NCBI RefSeq assembly: GCF_009498735.1
Contig: NZ_ML762429.1
Span: 25,195-89,194 of the forward strand
DNA: 64,000 nt
Reading direction: 5' to 3'
Source: Gracilibacillus oryzae
Lineage (GTDB): Bacteria > Bacillota > Bacilli > Bacillales > Amphibacillaceae
This document shows, one piece after another, positions 14,162 through 25,751 of this stretch (positions are counted from its first letter, which is position 1; every line of letters begins with the position of its first letter). The notes beneath the pieces were generated by a model. It made no database searches. It was not told where the DNA came from and saw only the letters and a list, made by a program, of their open reading frames with translations. The position numbers and the translations under genes were made by a program.

Positions 14162-15253
14162 ATGAAAAGAAAATTTCAGAAGAAATATCTGATATATATA
14201 TTTGTATTAATTGCGTTTATCAGCTCAATCATTTTTGTTAATAATAATTATGAATTTTATGACCGAACGATTGTCCAGATTACTGAAACAGATGAGTTGG
14301 AACGGACAGAGATAGTCGATCAATATGACAATAAAGATGTTACTGTAACCCAGCAGATTACAGCGGTGATCAAAAATGGAGCAGATAAAGGACAAACGAT
14401 GGAGATTGAAAATCAATATTCCGAATCACAGGCGATCCATTTTCACCTGAAAGAAGGCACAGAATTTTTCCTGGCCAATGACGGTATTTCAGTTGGTGAT
14501 ATAAAGCGGGATCAGTACCTGATATTGGTTATCTGGCTGTTTGTCTTGATCCTGTTGTTTGTTGGCAAAAAACAAGGAGCATTATCTGTTCTTAGTCTTG
14601 CCGTTAATGCGATTATACTGTCGATTGCTTTAGATATTTATATCCATAATTCGGATATCAGTTTACTCATTATATGCGGGATCAGTATAATCTTCTTTAC
14701 TGTATTGTCCTTAGTAATGGTCAGCGGGCTTCATGAAAAAACGTACACTGCGATTCTCGCTACATTCCTTGGAACAGCAACTTCACTGGCCATTGCTTTC
14801 CTTGCCTTTTTTTTCACAGGAGAACAGGGCTTGCGCTATGAAGAGATGTCCTTACTCAGCAGACATCCACAAGTTATCTTTATGGCAGGTTTGCTGATCG
14901 GATCATTAGGCGCCGTAATGGATGTAGCGATAACGATGTCATCATCCATGTTTGAATTATATGAGAAGAATAACAAGATTAACAGTGATGTGTTGAAAAA
15001 GTCTGGTCTTGAAATCGGCAAAGACATTATGGGGACAATGACGAACATTTTGTTTTTTGCTTATGTCAGTGGATCGATCCCGAATTTGTTATTATACTTT
15101 AAAAATGAATCACCAATCGGCTTTACTTTAACAACCAATCTTTCCATTGAATTGGCACGCGCCTTAGCAGGGGGAATCGGGATTGTCTTAACCATTCCGA
15201 TTACACTCTATATTTCGATTTACTTTATAAAAAGAAAGCAGGCGAAACAATGA
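14162..15253 (+). CDS. YibE/F family membrane protein (first of pair)
   Basis: 363 residues from the ATG at 14162 (GTGAGGG upstream); an in-frame ATG at 14126 lacks a ribosome site. One N-terminal transmembrane segment and an extracytoplasmic domain of about 90 residues (with a QYDNKDVTVTQQITAVIKNG stretch) precede about seven membrane segments from residue 130. The YibE/F core shows AGLLIGSLGAVMDVAITMSS and GLEIGKDIMGTMTNILFFAY. The family has no established activity. Overlap ATGA with the next gene, also YibE/F, implies a two-protein complex. Confidence 0.82.
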   Translation: MKRKFQKKYLIYIFVLIAFISSIIFVNNNYEFYDRTIVQITETDELERTEIVDQYDNKDVTVTQQITAVIKNGADKGQTMEIENQYSESQAIHFHLKEGTEFFLANDGISVGDIKRDQYLILVIWLFVLILLFVGKKQGALSVLSLAVNAIILSIALDIYIHNSDISLLIICGISIIFFTVLSLVMVSGLHEKTYTAILATFLGTATSLAIAFLAFFFTGEQGLRYEEMSLLSRHPQVIFMAGLLIGSLGAVMDVAITMSSSMFELYEKNNKINSDVLKKSGLEIGKDIMGTMTNILFFAYVSGSIPNLLLYFKNESPIGFTLTTNLSIELARALAGGIGIVLTIPITLYISIYFIKRKQAKQ

Positions 15254-17924: not shown

Positions 17925-19394
17925 TTATTCGCTTCCCTTCTCTATTTGAAATTTCATTGCAATAATGGTTCCTTTATTCTCGAATGACCACAACTTCAAC
18001 TCACCTCTATGCTTCTCTGCTATCCGTTTGGCAATATTCAAACCAAGACCAGTATTTTTGGACTGATAGGAAGTCCTTGCTTCTTCCCCTTGAAAAAATG
18101 GCTTAAAAATTGATTGTTTGTCCTGGATAGCTGGTCCCTCATTCTGGACGATAAGTATTGCCTGTCCTTTTCTGAACTGGTCTAGATCTGCTCTTGCTTC
18201 AGCAAAAGTCCAGTCAGGTAAACCGTTGGAAGTATCTATCACTGCAACCCCAATAGTTTTGTCTGTTTCTGTAAATCTTAACGCATTGCTCATCAAGTTA
18301 TCGAGATAGCGCACCATCTGCCGATCATTCATATAACAAGTTCCACTGACTAAGTTATCTTTCTTAAAATGGACTTGATGCTTTCTGGCAAGTTCATCAT
18401 AGCCTTCAAACAACATATCAAAAAACTCTTCTGCATCGACTTTTACTAATTCCATATCATATTGAGCTGACTGAAGCTTCGCATATAATGTGAGATCTTC
18501 AATCATTCCTTTGATATGAACTGATTTGCTTTTTATAATCTGCAGGTATTCCTCCTGCTCTGTATCGGAAAGGTTGCGTTCATTTTGCAGTGCTTCTGCG
18601 TATGCCTGAAGAGAAGTTAAGGGCGTTTTTATATCATGAGAAAAAGAAGCCATCATTAATTGCTTTTCCTCCTGCTCATGTTTAGCCTTGTTTTGAGCTT
18701 CCTTGATTTCATCCTGCATTTGTTCAAAATGCTGCATCAGCTGGCCAATTTCATCTTTTTTCTTATGCTCAAAATAGGTTGGCTTTTGAGTTGATGAGAA
18801 ATTGGACATCCCTTTCATCAATTTATTCAGCGGCATGTTCAGTTTTCTGTGTAGCATAAAGATAACTACAACATAGGTGATAAGAAAAAGGGTGAGTGAA
18901 ACAGCTATCATGATATTGCGTCTGTTTTGCACTCCTTCTACCCACTCTGAACGGTCAATGCTGATTTGATAAATTCCTACAATTTGATCATTCTGATAGA
19001 CAGGCTTTTTTACTGTAAAAGCATCATAGGACATATCATATTGATAAAGGTTTTTAAAAAGGAGTGATCGGTCCATCTTAAATAATGACTGCTCTTCCGT
19101 ATTAGACTGATAGATTCCCATCCCATCATACCGGTAAAGTTCCACAATAATACTTTCTTTATGGATTTCCTCAGGCAGCAGTTTTTCCATTTCATCTCTT
19201 GGTCTAATCTGATATAGTTGTGGTGACTGGAGCTGTTCTTCCATTGATTCCATCCGCTCATATAATTCAAACGAGTCGGCCAGAGCTTTTGACTGATCCC
19301 ATTCCTGAACTAAAATAAAGAAACCATATGCTGCGACAAGCGGAAGAAGCATTACAATCAAATAAGAAATCATCAGCCATGCCCGGATTTTCAT
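17925..19394 (-). CDS. Sensor histidine kinase
   Basis: 489 residues from the ATG at 19394, which overlaps the regulator stop as ATGA; an in-frame ATG at 19433 would lie inside the regulator gene. Two transmembrane segments (about residues 5-25 and 160-180) enclose an extracytoplasmic sensor of about 130 residues. HAMP, HisKA (FSHDIKTPLTSLQAYAEAL) and HATPase domains follow, with DNLMSNALRFT and NTGLGLNIAKRI. It should phosphorylate the response regulator encoded just before it. Confidence 0.88.
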   Translation of the reverse strand: MKIRAWLMISYLIVMLLPLVAAYGFFILVQEWDQSKALADSFELYERMESMEEQLQSPQLYQIRPRDEMEKLLPEEIHKESIIVELYRYDGMGIYQSNTEEQSLFKMDRSLLFKNLYQYDMSYDAFTVKKPVYQNDQIVGIYQISIDRSEWVEGVQNRRNIMIAVSLTLFLITYVVVIFMLHRKLNMPLNKLMKGMSNFSSTQKPTYFEHKKKDEIGQLMQHFEQMQDEIKEAQNKAKHEQEEKQLMMASFSHDIKTPLTSLQAYAEALQNERNLSDTEQEEYLQIIKSKSVHIKGMIEDLTLYAKLQSAQYDMELVKVDAEEFFDMLFEGYDELARKHQVHFKKDNLVSGTCYMNDRQMVRYLDNLMSNALRFTETDKTIGVAVIDTSNGLPDWTFAEARADLDQFRKGQAILIVQNEGPAIQDKQSIFKPFFQGEEARTSYQSKNTGLGLNIAKRIAEKHRGELKLWSFENKGTIIAMKFQIEKGSE

Positions 19395-20092
19395 ACTATC
19401 TGTTCTCCAATAAACCGGTAACCTGTTCCCCAAACGGTTTCAATCCATTTGGGCTCTTTCATTTGCTCATCAAGCTTATTACGAAGGCTTTTGATATGGA
19501 CATTAATCGTGTTATTCCCGATCCCTTCAACTTCACCCCATACATGCTCGTATAATTCGGCTTTGGTAAACGTTCTGTTCGGGTGCTGAACAAACAGTTG
19601 CAGTAAAGCAAACTCTTTCGATGTTAAAGGAATCTCTGTATCATAAGTGGCGACAAGCCGCTGTTCCATATTGATTGTCAGTCCATTATTGAAATTTATC
19701 TGATTTGATTGTGGCTCAATCCCTTGGTATCGCTGGTATCTTCGTAAATGTGATTTTACTCTGGCGACTAATTCCTCAAGACTGAACGGCTTGGTAATAT
19801 AATCATCTGCACCCAGATCCAATCCCTTGATCTTTGCTTCCTCTTCTAACTTTGCACTAATAATGAGCAATGGAATATCACTATTCAGCCTGATATTCTT
19901 GCAAAGTTGAAATCCATCCATTTCCGGGAGCATGAGATCAACAAGCACCAAGTCATACGTAGCTTGATTAAAATCCTCCCAGCCTTCCTTTCCAGTCGAC
20001 GCCCATGTAACCCGCATCCCCTGACGAAGAAGATGATCTCGGCAAATCCGGGCAATCTCTTTATCATCTTCTACAAGTAAAATAGAAACCAT
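19391..20092 (-). CDS. OmpR-family response regulator
   Basis: 233 residues from the ATG at 20092, with AGAGGAG 8 nt upstream (the ATG at 20110 has no ribosome site). The receiver domain has the acidic pair in LLVEDDKEI, the phospho-acceptor in LVLVDLMLPEMDG and Lys in YITKPFSLEE; a winged-helix DNA-binding domain follows from about residue 130 (LTSKEFALLQLFVQHPNRTF; GNNTINVHIKSLRNKL). First gene of the regulator-kinase-lipoprotein-sigma-like operon. Confidence 0.9.
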   Translation of the reverse strand: MVSILLVEDDKEIARICRDHLLRQGMRVTWASTGKEGWEDFNQATYDLVLVDLMLPEMDGFQLCKNIRLNSDIPLLIISAKLEEEAKIKGLDLGADDYITKPFSLEELVARVKSHLRRYQRYQGIEPQSNQINFNNGLTINMEQRLVATYDTEIPLTSKEFALLQLFVQHPNRTFTKAELYEHVWGEVEGIGNNTINVHIKSLRNKLDEQMKEPKWIETVWGTGYRFIGEQIV

Positions 20093-20224: not shown

Positions 20225-20505
20225 CTTGCGACTTCCTGCTCTCTTCTTGCGACTTCCTGCTCCTTTCTTGCGACTTCCCGCTCTTCTTGCGACTTCCTGC
20301 TCCTTTCTTGCGACTTCCCGCCCCTTTCTTGCGACTTCCCGCTCCTTCTTGCGACTTCCCACTCCCTTCTTGCGACTTCCTGCTCCCTTCTTGCGACTTC
20401 CTGCTCTCTTCTTGCGACTTCCTGCTCCTTTCTTGCGACTTCCTGCTCCTTTCTTGCGACTTCCCGCTCCTTTCTTGCGACTTCCCGCTCCTTCTTGCGA
20501 CTTCC
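20225..20505. repeat. Tandem repeat array, 14 copies of a 20-22 nt unit
   Basis: The core CTTGCGACTTCC occurs 14 times without interruption. Copies are separated by 8-10 nt variable C/T-rich linkers such as TGCTCCTTT or CGCTCCT, giving a period of 20-22 nt. It lies between the terminator of the giant kinase gene and the promoter region of the response regulator. Reading frames across it give only repetitive peptides and have no ribosome site, so it is not coding. Unit length varies by 1-2 nt, which argues against selection on a reading frame. Confidence 0.9.
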
Positions 20506-20513
20506 TAAAATAG

Positions 20514-20544
20514 AAAAAATCCAGCGAAGCTGCTGGATTTTCCT
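20514..20544 (-). terminator. Intrinsic terminator after the hybrid kinase gene
   Basis: AAAATCCAGC and GCTGGATTTT arms around a short loop, with T-rich sequence on the minus-strand side. Confidence 0.8.
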
Positions 20545-20552
20545 AATATCTA

Positions 20553-23500
20553 TTATAGAGTTATGCTCTCATTCACTTCTGCTACTTGATCATATTCTCT
20601 TTCATCAATAATCGGGATAGAGAAAGCAAAAGCAGTGCCTTCGTTCACAATACTTTCCACCCATATTTCCCCATTAAGGCAGTGTATAATTTCTTTACTG
20701 ATAGCAAGACCTAATCCATTTCCGCTTGTTTTTCTTTTCGTATAATATCTGTCAAAAACATAAGGAATATCTGCTGGTAAAATGCCTTCCCCTTCATCTC
20801 TAATAGTGAAAATCGCCTGGTTTTTTTCTGAAATGGCTAAGCTTAGCTCGATTGTCCCTTTATCGGTATGCTTAATTGCATTGGATACCAGGTTAGCCAT
20901 GACCTGTTCCAGCCTCCCCACATCAACCTCAATCAATGGATATTCATTCTCTGAATCTACTAACAATCGATTATGAAACTCTAGTCCACTCTGCTCTACT
21001 TCCAATGCAAATACACTGCAGAAATGGTAGTATAACTGATCAACAGGGATGGCTTCCAGCGAAAATTGCATATTACCTGTTTCCAGTTTTGACAAATCAA
21101 ATAAATCTTTCATCAATGTATTTAAACCGCTCAACCGATTTTGGATTGTCTGGAGAAAGTCCTTTTGTTTGGCAGGATCCTGAACTATTCCATCAAGTAA
21201 TGCACGGACATATCCTTGGACAACAGTAACAGGTGACTGGAGATCATGGGATATATTTGATAATAAATGCTTCATCTTCTCTTTTGAATTCGTTAATTGC
21301 TGATTGACATCACTTAACGATTGATTCGATTCATTCAAAAGTTCTGTCCGCATTCTTACCTTTTCTTCTAGTTCTGAATAAAGATACGCATTTTCTATCG
21401 ATACAGCCGCTTGTGAGGCGATTAAATTCAGGAAATTCAACCGCTCACGGGTAAAGACATTTGTTGATTGATTGTTTTCCATATACAGTACGGCAACAAG
21501 CTTATCTTGATAAATAACCGGCAGACATAATACAGATTTGGCTTTTGTTTCTTGAATATAGCTGTCTTCAGTGAAATTGCCCTGCTCTCCGGCATTATCT
21601 AACACTACGACTTCTTTGCTATTCCTCACATAAGAAACAATTGCCTGGCAAAATCTTTGTTTATTTTCGCCCTTCATGGATAGCCCATTAAAATGGTGAT
21701 AAGAAACTAAGTCAAGCTCCCCATCTGTATGTAATAAAAAGGAGGCATGCTCCGCACCAGCATATGACAGCACAATTTCCATTAAACGGTTAATTAACTC
21801 TTCTAACACTACCTCACTTGAAATAATTTGGGCTGCATTAATAAAAGCATTCCTATCAAGGTGTTCCATTGGTACCATTCCACTTAGCACACTGTCTTTT
21901 ATCTGCAGCAGTAATTGAGGATAATCTTGTTTTATCTTGCTTGCAATATGTTTTGCACCCCAATTCAAAAATCCGTTATAGGCTTCTGTCATAAAAGACT
22001 TAGCATTTTGGGAGAGACCTGATGCCAGATAGAAATTAGCTGCACAGTAATTCGCAATCGCTGTATCCTGCAAAAATCCATTCGCTTCCGCTTGTTCAAT
22101 TGCCTCGTGATAAAGCGCCATTGCCTTTTGTTCCTTTTGGTTAAACCTCTCTAATTCCGCTTGAACCAATAAGTACTTATGTAAATAATTAGCAGGTGCA
22201 TGCTCTGCCCAGTTTTTTAATTTTGCAATATTCTTTTTCAATTTTTTTAAATTCATTCTTTTCTCAATAATATTTTTATCCATCAGCTTTATCAGCCATA
22301 ATGAATGATAGAAAAAATATTCAGGCGCCACACTGAGGACAAGTGTATTATCAACTAGTGGCTCTAATTCCTCCATTAGTAATAGCGCTTTTGTTTGATT
22401 ATCTAATAAATACGCTACCTGCAATCTTGTTGTCTTATGAATAATTGCTGCTGACTTATCATCAGTAAAGTCAGGAAAGTTCCATGTTGGTTGTTTATCC
22501 TGCACAGTTAGAACAGCAATCCACTCAGATAGTTCTGCAAGATAATCACTGGTTATAGCATATTCATTCTTTCGTGCAAACATTAACTGTCGTTCAATAC
22601 CTTCTTCTACCAGCTCTAAATGATCCCCTTTTATATATTGGGCCAAAACGATAAAAGCTCCATTGGCACCAGCCAGGTGCAGGTTCCCTGTTTCAATACA
22701 GATCTGCTGGGATTGTTCTAAATACTCCAGGTTATGGCGAATATGATTTTTCCAATGATTAACAAATGTACCGAAAACAAAAAATACCCGTGCTTGTAAA
22801 GCCCGCTCACCGGATCTTTTCACATGTTCAATAGCAAGCTTCCCAAATTGATAGCTTCCCTTATAATCGCCAAAGCCTGCACTCAGTGTTAAGGCATAAT
22901 TGTTATAGACAAGCGCAGATAAATCCATATCCCCAACCTTTAATGTCAGGCGCAATGCCCGCAGCATTAAAATTGTCGCAAGATTCTGATTGAAGTGATA
23001 GGTTGGTGCATTCGTATTAATTAATGTACGCAAAACTTCCCTTTGGTAAGAATCAGCTACAGGTGTAATCTTTAGCAAATCTTCACTCCGCCTGTTACCT
23101 AAAGCGAGTTTAGTTAACATATATTCCTTCGCCACTGTTAGTTTACCTGGATTGTTTCTTATATCTAAACCGAATAATCGCACACCTGCAAGGCCCGCTT
23201 CTGTGGCCTTCTCCACCTTGTGAATATGGATATACAGAGTAATTTTTAAATTATAAATAGATAGTTTCTCTTGCTTTGTTTTCGCATGTGCCAACATCTC
23301 TTCAAAAATAATTTCAGCCTCTTCAAAATGCTGATTTAAATATAGTGACTCCCCGTATCCCATCATTACTTTAAAAGTCTCTTTATAATTTAGGTTCCAC
23401 TTATCATCTGGCAATAACCGGAACGCCCTCTGATAATAATTCCAAGCTGTTTGATATGCTGCAGCAGTCTTCGCTTTCTCACCTGCTATCCGATTCCATT

Positions 23501-25751
23501 TAATTAGATCACTTAGTTGCCTTTCAGATAATCTCGATCGGCATATATTCAAATGGTTGACGAGTGCGAAGATATGAAACTCAATTTCCTTATCTGTATA
23601 ATTTCTTAATAGTTCCTCCGCAATTTTCAAATGGGTGAGCTCCTGCTCTTCTTTTGACATGGAGTTATAAAAAGCCTGTTGAATTTTATCATGCAGGAAA
23701 CAGTACATTGGCGGATGCTGTTTAAGCAATTGTTCATTTTCCTTTGGGTAAACCCATTTATAATGAATGTCCATTGGCAGAATCACGCCCTCTTCCAATC
23801 CATCCCACAATTGCTTTGCCATCGTTTCATAGCTTTCTCCTGTTATCGTACTTAAAAGTTTAAGATCAAACTTAATTCCGATACATGCGGCGATCTGTAA
23901 CAAACGCATTGTCTGTGCTGGCAATTTATTGATCTGTTTCATAATAAACTCAAGCATCGTATCAGTCAGCGGAATCTGGTGTAACTCGGCAAGATTTACC
24001 TTCCAGGATGCCGTGCTTAGATCAAAGCGAATAACTTGCTCCTGATAAAGCAAAAGAAATAGTTGGTTGATAAAGAAGGGATTTCCTTTTGTTATTCGGC
24101 AGGTCAATTCTGTCAAGGAAGCGAGAGACTCTGCTTTTAATCCGAATACTTCATTAATCCATTGTTCCATATCCGTTTTGGTCAAAGGGTGAACCGGAAT
24201 ACTGGCAGATATGATATCCTTTTCTTTCAATTGCTTTAAGAGGATTTCAAATGGGTGACCCACTTCCACTTCATCATCACGGTATGCTCCAATTATCAGT
24301 AAATTCCTTCTGCCAGGATTCAGCAATAAGTGTTTGATTAAGTCTATTGTTGCATGGTCAGCCCATTGCAGATCATCGATGAATAGAACAAGTGGATGGG
24401 TTCCGGTTGCAAAAACATCAATGAAATTTCTGACAACAAGTCTAAATCGGTTATGCACCCCTTGCGGCGGCAAGTCAGGTCCATTTCCTTGCTTGCCAAT
24501 TAACCATTCAATCTCAGGGAGAAAATTAGAAATTATCCATGCATTGTTAGCGAGTGCTGTGTTTATTTTATTTCTCCACATTTCTATACTGCTGTTGCTT
24601 TCTGTTAAGATTTGCTTTATTAAAGAACGAAATGCTTCTATTATCGGTGCATAAGGAATATGCTTTTGAAACTGGACAAACTTCCCTGCTGTAAAGTAAC
24701 CTCTTTTATTTAACAGTGGTTTTTGTAATCGCTGGACAAGTGCCGTTTTCCCGGTACCTGATGAGCCTGGTATAAGTACAATTGACGGTTGGCCATTTTT
24801 TACTTGCTCAAAGATTTCTATCAGCTTATTAAGTTCCTGCTCTCTCCCATAAAGTTTATGCGGCTTTTCTAAAACGGAGCGAGCATCAGATACCCCAAGT
24901 GGAAACTGAATCATTCCTTGGGTTGAGTGAAAATGATAAAAGCATTTCTCTAAATCCCGTTTTAACCCATCTGTACTTTGATAACGTTTTTCCGGCATTT
25001 TGTCTAACAGTTTCATAATAATATTGGAAATTACAATGGGGATAGCTTTATTCATTTCATGTGGAGGTCTCGGTGATTGAGCTAGATGGGCATGGATTAT
25101 TTCAGCTGGGTCGCTCTTGTCATGAAAGGGAACCTGGCCTGTTGCAAGCTGGTAAAGCAAAGCACCTAGTGAATACAGATCTGTGCGATAATCCACTGAC
25201 CGATTCATTCTTCCTGTTTGTTCAGGTGATAAATAATAAAGCCCTTCCAATTGGTTAGTTGCTGCAGATGCCTGCAACAGTTCACTTGAAAGCATTGTTG
25301 ACAGGTGAAAGCCCGTTATCCTCAGCTTGTCAGTACTCTCATCATACAAAACGTTATTTGGCTGAATTGCTTTATGGATAATATTATTTTGATGAATAGA
25401 GAAAAGAACTGTCGTTAAGTTCATTGCCATTTTCAAAAAATGATTTGTATCAAATGGCTGCTTTTTGTTTATCCATTCCGTTAAAGGCTCCCCATTAAAA
25501 TATTCCAGGATCACATATGGCTGTTCTTTATCTTTCTCCAATTGAACCGGCAGAAGTACACCATAAAGCTCTTTATCCTTTAGTGTATAGTATTCATGAA
25601 TCAATTCAGCTTTTGCGTCTGGATAGGCCTTATTGTTTATGGTTTTAATGAGCACTTTCCTTTTGTCATCAATGGAAACAGCATTGTACAGTGCCCATTT
25701 ATCAGAAAGAATCCGTTTGTCTGTCAATTGGTAATTCAATACTTTCTTCAT
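20553..25751 (-). CDS. Giant hybrid sensor: pseudokinase-STAND ATPase-GAF-histidine kinase
   Basis: 1732 residues with several domains. Residues 1-270 are a Ser/Thr-kinase-like fold: Lys36 (VLIK) is kept, but the catalytic loop reads HKAIQPNN (Asp replaced by Ala128) and the DFG position reads ITGF (no Asp), so it is predicted inactive. A STAND/AAA ATPase follows, with Walker A GSSGTGKT near 330 and Walker B LVLFIDDLQWAD. A long helical TPR-like middle runs from about 700 to 1290. The C-terminus has a GAF domain (about 1330-1490), HisKA (SNISHDLQSPVTVVQGY) and HATPase with GNGLGLAISKEI. No transmembrane segment is seen. The architecture is that of large cyanobacterial and myxobacterial hybrid sensors. 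The OmpR regulator at 26022 is the nearest possible partner. Confidence 0.9.
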   Translation of the reverse strand: MKKVLNYQLTDKRILSDKWALYNAVSIDDKRKVLIKTINNKAYPDAKAELIHEYYTLKDKELYGVLLPVQLEKDKEQPYVILEYFNGEPLTEWINKKQPFDTNHFLKMAMNLTTVLFSIHQNNIIHKAIQPNNVLYDESTDKLRITGFHLSTMLSSELLQASAATNQLEGLYYLSPEQTGRMNRSVDYRTDLYSLGALLYQLATGQVPFHDKSDPAEIIHAHLAQSPRPPHEMNKAIPIVISNIIMKLLDKMPEKRYQSTDGLKRDLEKCFYHFHSTQGMIQFPLGVSDARSVLEKPHKLYGREQELNKLIEIFEQVKNGQPSIVLIPGSSGTGKTALVQRLQKPLLNKRGYFTAGKFVQFQKHIPYAPIIEAFRSLIKQILTESNSSIEMWRNKINTALANNAWIISNFLPEIEWLIGKQGNGPDLPPQGVHNRFRLVVRNFIDVFATGTHPLVLFIDDLQWADHATIDLIKHLLLNPGRRNLLIIGAYRDDEVEVGHPFEILLKQLKEKDIISASIPVHPLTKTDMEQWINEVFGLKAESLASLTELTCRITKGNPFFINQLFLLLYQEQVIRFDLSTASWKVNLAELHQIPLTDTMLEFIMKQINKLPAQTMRLLQIAACIGIKFDLKLLSTITGESYETMAKQLWDGLEEGVILPMDIHYKWVYPKENEQLLKQHPPMYCFLHDKIQQAFYNSMSKEEQELTHLKIAEELLRNYTDKEIEFHIFALVNHLNICRSRLSERQLSDLIKWNRIAGEKAKTAAAYQTAWNYYQRAFRLLPDDKWNLNYKETFKVMMGYGESLYLNQHFEEAEIIFEEMLAHAKTKQEKLSIYNLKITLYIHIHKVEKATEAGLAGVRLFGLDIRNNPGKLTVAKEYMLTKLALGNRRSEDLLKITPVADSYQREVLRTLINTNAPTYHFNQNLATILMLRALRLTLKVGDMDLSALVYNNYALTLSAGFGDYKGSYQFGKLAIEHVKRSGERALQARVFFVFGTFVNHWKNHIRHNLEYLEQSQQICIETGNLHLAGANGAFIVLAQYIKGDHLELVEEGIERQLMFARKNEYAITSDYLAELSEWIAVLTVQDKQPTWNFPDFTDDKSAAIIHKTTRLQVAYLLDNQTKALLLMEELEPLVDNTLVLSVAPEYFFYHSLWLIKLMDKNIIEKRMNLKKLKKNIAKLKNWAEHAPANYLHKYLLVQAELERFNQKEQKAMALYHEAIEQAEANGFLQDTAIANYCAANFYLASGLSQNAKSFMTEAYNGFLNWGAKHIASKIKQDYPQLLLQIKDSVLSGMVPMEHLDRNAFINAAQIISSEVVLEELINRLMEIVLSYAGAEHASFLLHTDGELDLVSYHHFNGLSMKGENKQRFCQAIVSYVRNSKEVVVLDNAGEQGNFTEDSYIQETKAKSVLCLPVIYQDKLVAVLYMENNQSTNVFTRERLNFLNLIASQAAVSIENAYLYSELEEKVRMRTELLNESNQSLSDVNQQLTNSKEKMKHLLSNISHDLQSPVTVVQGYVRALLDGIVQDPAKQKDFLQTIQNRLSGLNTLMKDLFDLSKLETGNMQFSLEAIPVDQLYYHFCSVFALEVEQSGLEFHNRLLVDSENEYPLIEVDVGRLEQVMANLVSNAIKHTDKGTIELSLAISEKNQAIFTIRDEGEGILPADIPYVFDRYYTKRKTSGNGLGLAISKEIIHCLNGEIWVESIVNEGTAFAFSIPIIDEREYDQVAEVNESITL

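Follow-up and report, generated by a model that had tools for sequence, protein, structure and literature searches.

The tandem array at positions 20225–20505 of the window (the whole 64,000-nt stretch of DNA that was analyzed) is one of 14 arrays in a dispersed, non-coding satellite family of Gracilibacillus oryzae with units of 20–21 nt. The arrays of this family are mostly located at the 3′ ends of genes, in many cases after a terminator, and remain at the same junctions in orthologous regions of different species even as their units are exchanged. Their fixed core and their fixed strand orientation hint at a dedicated, putative protein that reads the DNA.

The window array lies on the plus strand and consists of 14 units of 19–21 nt, each with a core, CTTGCGACTTCC, that is part of a wider conserved block, TTCTTGCGACTTCC, and with a variable pyrimidine-rich linker. 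Core counts recovered 14 exact copies of CTTGCGACTTCC, in agreement with the original prediction; none of 100 shuffled sequences reached this number, and 0.14 matches are expected by chance when up to one mismatch is allowed. The array is described by TRF with a period of 21, 13.7 copies and a score of 428. The predicted tandem repeat is therefore real, but its unit length, given as 20–22 nt, measures 19–21 nt, with core-to-core distances of 21 nt (10 cases), 20 nt (2) and 19 nt (1). Linkers vary chiefly by C/T changes plus indels of 1–2 nt.

Both operons that flank the window array are encoded on the minus strand, and their genes were assigned from open reading frames and domain content. The gene whose 3′ end faces the array (20553–25751, minus strand) encodes a hybrid protein of 1732 aa with Pkinase, AAA_16, GAF, HisKA and HATPase_c domains. 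Inspection for hairpins revealed that the stop codon of this kinase gene is separated from the array by an intrinsic-terminator-like hairpin (20514–20543, minus strand), with 12 pairs followed by a T-rich tail; a hairpin was also recognized by eye at the corresponding place in Gracilibacillus ureilyticus (G010). On the other side, the start of an OmpR-type response regulator gene (Response_reg and Trans_reg_C; 19391–20092, minus strand) is found 132 bp beyond the array, together with the gene of a histidine kinase (HAMP, HisKA and HATPase_c; 17925–19394, minus strand) that is the presumed partner of the regulator. Orthologues of the 1732-aa kinase–AAA–GAF–histidine kinase hybrid occur in several species of the genus, with different genes after each.

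The search of the genome and its relatives for the core that accompanied the original prediction was carried out, and places all 164 exact copies of G. oryzae (83 + 81, in 4.63 Mb and 53 contigs) in arrays, with 0–1 copies in each of 60 other genomes and none of a reversed control pattern in the G. oryzae genome. A DNA search of the same genome returned 29 matches that resolve into 14 arrays, the sequences of which were examined whole, including the flanks. The arrays comprise 270 units (up to 3 mismatches) with a modal length of 21 nt and 13–31 units each, copy numbers that are possibly affected by the assembly because three arrays (C5a, C35 and C46) are found at the end of a contig or close to it. 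The exact 12-mer core is present in 164 of the 270 units and in 13 arrays, the remaining array, C21, having none, and CTTGCGACTT is found in all 14 array consensuses (21-nt units). A few further arrays of this genome are built of a sister unit, TTTATTTGCAG... Cores are spaced by 19–22 nt, or double this distance, in G. oryzae, and nearly always by 20–21 nt in G. ureilyticus and Saliterribacillus persicus (G148).

The flanks of the G. oryzae arrays hold varied genes with apparently unrelated functions. By eye, from the translations, we take the neighbors to include RNase HIII and the beta subunit of phenylalanyl-tRNA synthetase, tryptophan synthase alpha, purH and purD, and a NERD-domain protein with an anaerobic ribonucleotide reductase. 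The gene located 3′ of the TTGC strand (the right-hand gene) is transcribed toward the array at 41 of 46 loci (11/13 + 19/20 + 11/13), and a terminator-like hairpin precedes the array for 24 of 37 right-hand genes, a count made with a crude finder that missed some cases visible by eye (G010_L228). A coding repeat was discarded, as a frame would not be maintained through units of 19 and 20 nt and the arrays are intergenic; the open frames that cross some arrays do so by periodicity, with no support beyond it.

A conserved core with free linkers, which had been proposed as a sign of something other than simple slippage, is supported by a comparison of the consensuses of the 14 arrays. Between consensuses, a base other than the majority one occurs in 3 of 196 cells for the 14 positions of the conserved block, versus 36 of 98 cells for the seven linker positions. 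Within arrays, the deviation of 21-nt units from their consensus is 3.0% for core positions against 15.3% for linker positions, although core conservation is biased upward because the arrays were located by core-based searches. Singleton changes per site amount to 1.67 in the core versus 3.33 in the linker, and are thus only about 2-fold rarer in the core. In G. ureilyticus (133 units) and S. persicus (87 units), the TTGC and the next TT vary by 0–8% and the linker varies more. A core TTGCRNNTT is common to several genera and is kept while linkers are replaced, with versions that characterize the species: GCGAC in G. oryzae, and in G. ureilyticus usually GCAAC or GCAAT.

The majority of unit types (101 of 119) are private to one array, which indicates that the common core does not derive mainly from recent copying of units between loci. 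Some transfer of units is possible, but the signs of block transfer are limited. C5a and C35 have four unit types in common, as do C38 and C46. The longest run of identical units common to two loci is 3, and the pairs C46/C5b and C46/C32 exceed 500 of 500 shuffles; the run of 3 that C46 has in common with C5b and C32 is a single unit type repeated.

In a scan of 159 genomes of the family, 15 had tandem pairs of the degenerate core, some of which correspond to other repeats, such as a short-period run in G070. The sister pattern TATTTGCARNTT was found in tandem in 5 of the 17 Gracilibacillus genomes, and a triple pattern in 4 of 397 genomes of the order. Cytobacillus, Gottfriedia, Neobacillus and Ureibacillus are among the triple-repeat matches listed for named genomes. 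The arrays look dispensable, because in most Gracilibacillus species these patterns detect few arrays or none. The patterns nevertheless miss some arrays: the degenerate and sister patterns each score zero in G002, yet this genome carries an array of 6.5 copies at nrdD. Matches from outside the Bacilli (Prauserella, Bacteroidales and others) are not taken as relatives, because any large collection of 21-nt repeats would be expected to yield some TTGCRRNTTYC by chance. Among the matches listed, several Prauserella species (loci L111, L114, L119, L125 and others) have many 21-nt arrays with a GTGTTGCGGATTCCGGGG-like unit, which may be actinobacterial satellites of this kind.

That arrays remain in place between orthologous genes is apparent from the comparison with G. 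ureilyticus, where 4 of 8 examined arrays have counterparts at G. oryzae loci: the kinase–regulator junction, with the core TTGCAACTTCC, C5b (where only the right-hand genes match), purH–purD (C12a) and NERD–nrdD (C12b). At the NERD–nrdD junction, arrays with differing units are found in G. oryzae, G. ureilyticus, G014 and G002, and TTGCRNNTT recurs in all four. About three degenerate units are visible by eye at this junction in G009, where TRF reports none, and no array was found there in G005 and G012, in which the upstream sequence differs. S. persicus and Paraliobacillus ryukyuensis (G136) carry arrays after a NERD-type gene and also after a gene that we take to be gnd. By contrast with the two Gracilibacillus species, TRF finds no array behind the kinase orthologue in seven other species that have other downstream genes. 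The genes purH and purD usually belong to one operon; in two Gracilibacillus species they are separated by an array and a hairpin, and in Saliterribacillus the examined array is located after purD instead. In G014, more 21-nt arrays with other units (L283:3040–3159 and 15056–15192) are located near an array of TTTATTTGCAACTT.

The orientation of the arrays follows the GC skew of the surrounding DNA. The skew of the TTGC strand is negative in all 13 regions of 20–45 kb from G. oryzae, with values of −0.052 to −0.132 once the arrays are removed, and the same sign is found at 33 of 34 loci from this and related genomes when smaller, array-free pieces are used. A prediction was set beforehand for 13 loci. 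All 10 previously unseen loci, some of which are mutual orthologues, proved negative; of the other three, from Gottfriedia luciferensis (G482) and G255 and viewed earlier in 8-kb pieces, two are negative and one has a value of +0.014. Taken together, TTGC lies on the C-rich strand at 46 of 47 loci, a figure that includes orthologues and hence loci that are not all independent. The value depends on the length of the piece at locus L229 of G. ureilyticus, which gives +0.013 in 7 kb and −0.036 in 20 kb. Wider Bacilli loci chosen by name are negative in 19 and positive in 5 of 24 cases, the 24 being drawn from at least 80 loci and five of them belonging to genomes already counted. Negative GC skew marks the lagging strand in Firmicutes, and the TTGC strand is presumed to be the lagging strand.

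Convergent loci, at which transcription is symmetrical, are negative in 17 of 17 cases (20-kb values). These firm loci were selected by hand (C3, C5b, C7, C21, C38, L229, L232, L233, L237, L238, L242, L243, L244, L282, L285, L287 and L292); the automatic classes took open frames of the arrays for genes at C5b, C7, C35, C38, C46, G010_L230 and perhaps L234. Gene orientation, rather than replication, was rejected as the basis of the polarity: C9 and the NERD–nrdD loci depart from the gene rule but conform to the skew, so that GC skew offers the better fit. The polarity is nonetheless partly a general background, because intergenic pyrimidine tracts outside the arrays share the strand bias, with 51 of 79 tracts of at least 12 nt and 17 of 23 of at least 15 nt on the C-rich strand (tracts with a local skew under 0.03 were excluded). 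The GC composition of the arrays themselves does not set the orientation alone, because G exceeds C on the TTGC strand of four arrays (C21, L281, L286 and L290) that keep the same orientation; this strand is still T-rich in them.

The mechanism that best accounts for these features is an array of uniformly oriented DNA sites that would be recognized by a putative protein, a reading that we hold tentatively, at slightly under an even chance. The core, TTCTTGCGACTTCC in G. oryzae and TTGCRNNTT across the relatives, would be a double-stranded DNA site, and the placement of cores two helical turns apart would allow a putative sequence-specific protein to bind cooperatively along one face of the helix. 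The array would be oriented relative to replication and placed in quiet DNA, where, once bound, it would disturb neither promoters nor coding sequences. A shift in the preference of the putative protein would explain why each species has one version of the core. The constant two-turn spacing, the short fixed core, the free linkers and the species-wide core versions fit sites of such a putative DNA-binding protein. A more ambitious reading, which we consider rather unlikely, is that of a eukaryote-like bacterial satellite, with junctions fixed over species and genus divergence, genome-wide concerted replacement of units, uniform replication polarity and a rapidly evolving, dedicated, putative reader.

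Amplification that depends on the core and does not serve the cell is almost as good a fit as an array of protein sites, and we regard it as a serious possibility that falls short of probable. Such a non-adaptive satellite would grow and turn over via replication slippage and unequal exchange, and would survive where it is least harmful, at gene 3′ ends. Its single orientation would be due to instability of the other orientation or to a purine-rich leading strand, and its core would be kept for promoting amplification. The patchy presence among species, the private homogenization of linkers inside arrays, the species-dependent unit versions and the background strand bias are in line with this explanation, as is the partial conservation of 52-nt repeats between strains described in the available text of PMC8161180. 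What it does not readily provide is the sequence-specific step that is needed to constrain the core alone over 14 loci and, at one junction, across species; moreover, the arrays with G above C hold the same orientation. One particular route, slippage via a hairpin on the nascent lagging strand, is not supported, as the TTGC strand, in single-stranded form, is the less stable of the two in 36 of 39 arrays, by a small margin.

An element that acts as RNA is weakly supported, and we judge it improbable. It could be a transcribed antisense terminator on the TTGC strand that is C/U-rich and loads Rho in the manner of a rut site, or it could act as a small RNA or sponge. Sites of the rut type are C-rich, G-poor RNA, and the TTGC strand has 35–42% C and 14–17% G in 13 of the 14 G. 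oryzae arrays and 24–40% C and 8–16% G in 8 arrays of G. ureilyticus (the base fractions of G014_L283 are unreliable, with a sum well under 1, because this locus contains 100 N). The TTGC strand would face antisense or read-through transcription, the plus-strand RNA of the window array folds somewhat better than shuffles (z −2.28), and transcription of 52-nt satellites is reported for B. coagulans in the available part of PMC8625621. Against it, the window array and many others lie beyond a terminator, and the four arrays with more G than C, which depart from the composition of rut sites, occupy the same kind of place in the same orientation. The minus-strand RNA element of the original prediction, read into the regulator operon, is not supported, with folding worse than that of shuffles (z +1.82) and an array situated past the kinase terminator; Rfam yielded no family at the gathering score for the array. 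A local regulatory array of the response-regulator promoter is very unlikely. It would agree with the position of the array, which immediately precedes the regulator gene in G. oryzae as well as in G. ureilyticus, but the 13 other arrays adjoin unrelated genes, several of them between convergent genes with no promoter near, and the seven species in which the kinase orthologue is followed by other genes show no array there. The first interpretation of this array is thus supported for the core with free linkers and unsupported for the regulator-operon role and the minus-strand RNA.

Among known repeat systems, REP/BIME elements are dispersed, extragenic and biased to gene 3′ ends, and REPs are palindromic. 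The G. oryzae arrays resemble them in the first three respects and differ in that their units are direct repeats with at most a short TTGCAA palindrome, which is absent from the G. oryzae core; the reverse complement of CTTGCGACTTCC differs from CTTGCGACTTCC itself. CRISPR arrays likewise consist of direct repeats separated by variable segments, and this identity was rejected in view of the linkers of 7–9 nt that recur within arrays, the 21-nt units and the presence of 14 arrays per genome.

The window array belongs to the constant-size, non-coding tandem repeats of 20–21 nt of Bacillus, as this class is presented in the available text of PMC8161180 (Subirana and Messeguer 2021), which counts 781 repeats of 20–21 nt and 1886 of 51–53 nt among 4029 tandem repeats in 176 Bacillus genomes. 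The repeats are described there as species-specific, with short conserved signals and an unexplained function, for which nucleoid binding or a small RNA was proposed. Unit length, several arrays per genome, species-specific sequence, non-coding character and patchy distribution are common to that class and to the arrays described here. The G. oryzae arrays have at least 4 tandem copies of 20–21 nt, form several arrays of the same length and different sequence (mostly private linkers, and the sister unit TTTATTTGCAG), carry a short characteristic signal (CTTGCGACTT in all 14 consensuses), do not code for protein, and are specific to the species, as judged from the exact core counts in 60 other genomes. 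The 52-nt constant-size repeats of Bacillus in the same text are alike in constant unit, short conserved signals and species specificity, and differ in length and sequence. A 52-nt tandem repeat of 9.4 copies is present in the G. oryzae genome (L287:6658–7143; contig C5, about 96158–96643), and a 51-nt array of 5.3 copies in G009 (L298:13954–14225).

The 20–21 nt satellites were published as an enigma without a function, in the available text of PMC8161180. The common core, the consistent polarity and the orthologous arrays with exchanged units turn this enigma into testable predictions, namely which protein binds TTGCRNNTT arrays, whether their orientation has an effect, and whether reader and core co-evolve. 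Among the papers listed by a literature search, titles and the beginnings of abstracts gave, satellite papers aside, no earlier account of array polarity or of the TTGCRNNTT core. The available text of PMC8161180 contains the words "orientation", "terminator", "leading strand" and "intergenic" 0 times, as well as no mention of Gracilibacillus. It reports no sequence conservation, unlike the 9-bp TTGCRNNTT common to several genera here, and its signal for B. weihaiensis, TCGCGG, differs from this core. As far as the available text of the satellite papers extends, the common core, the strand polarity, the location at the 3′ ends of genes and the persistence at orthologous junctions are not found there and constitute additions to the known satellite class.
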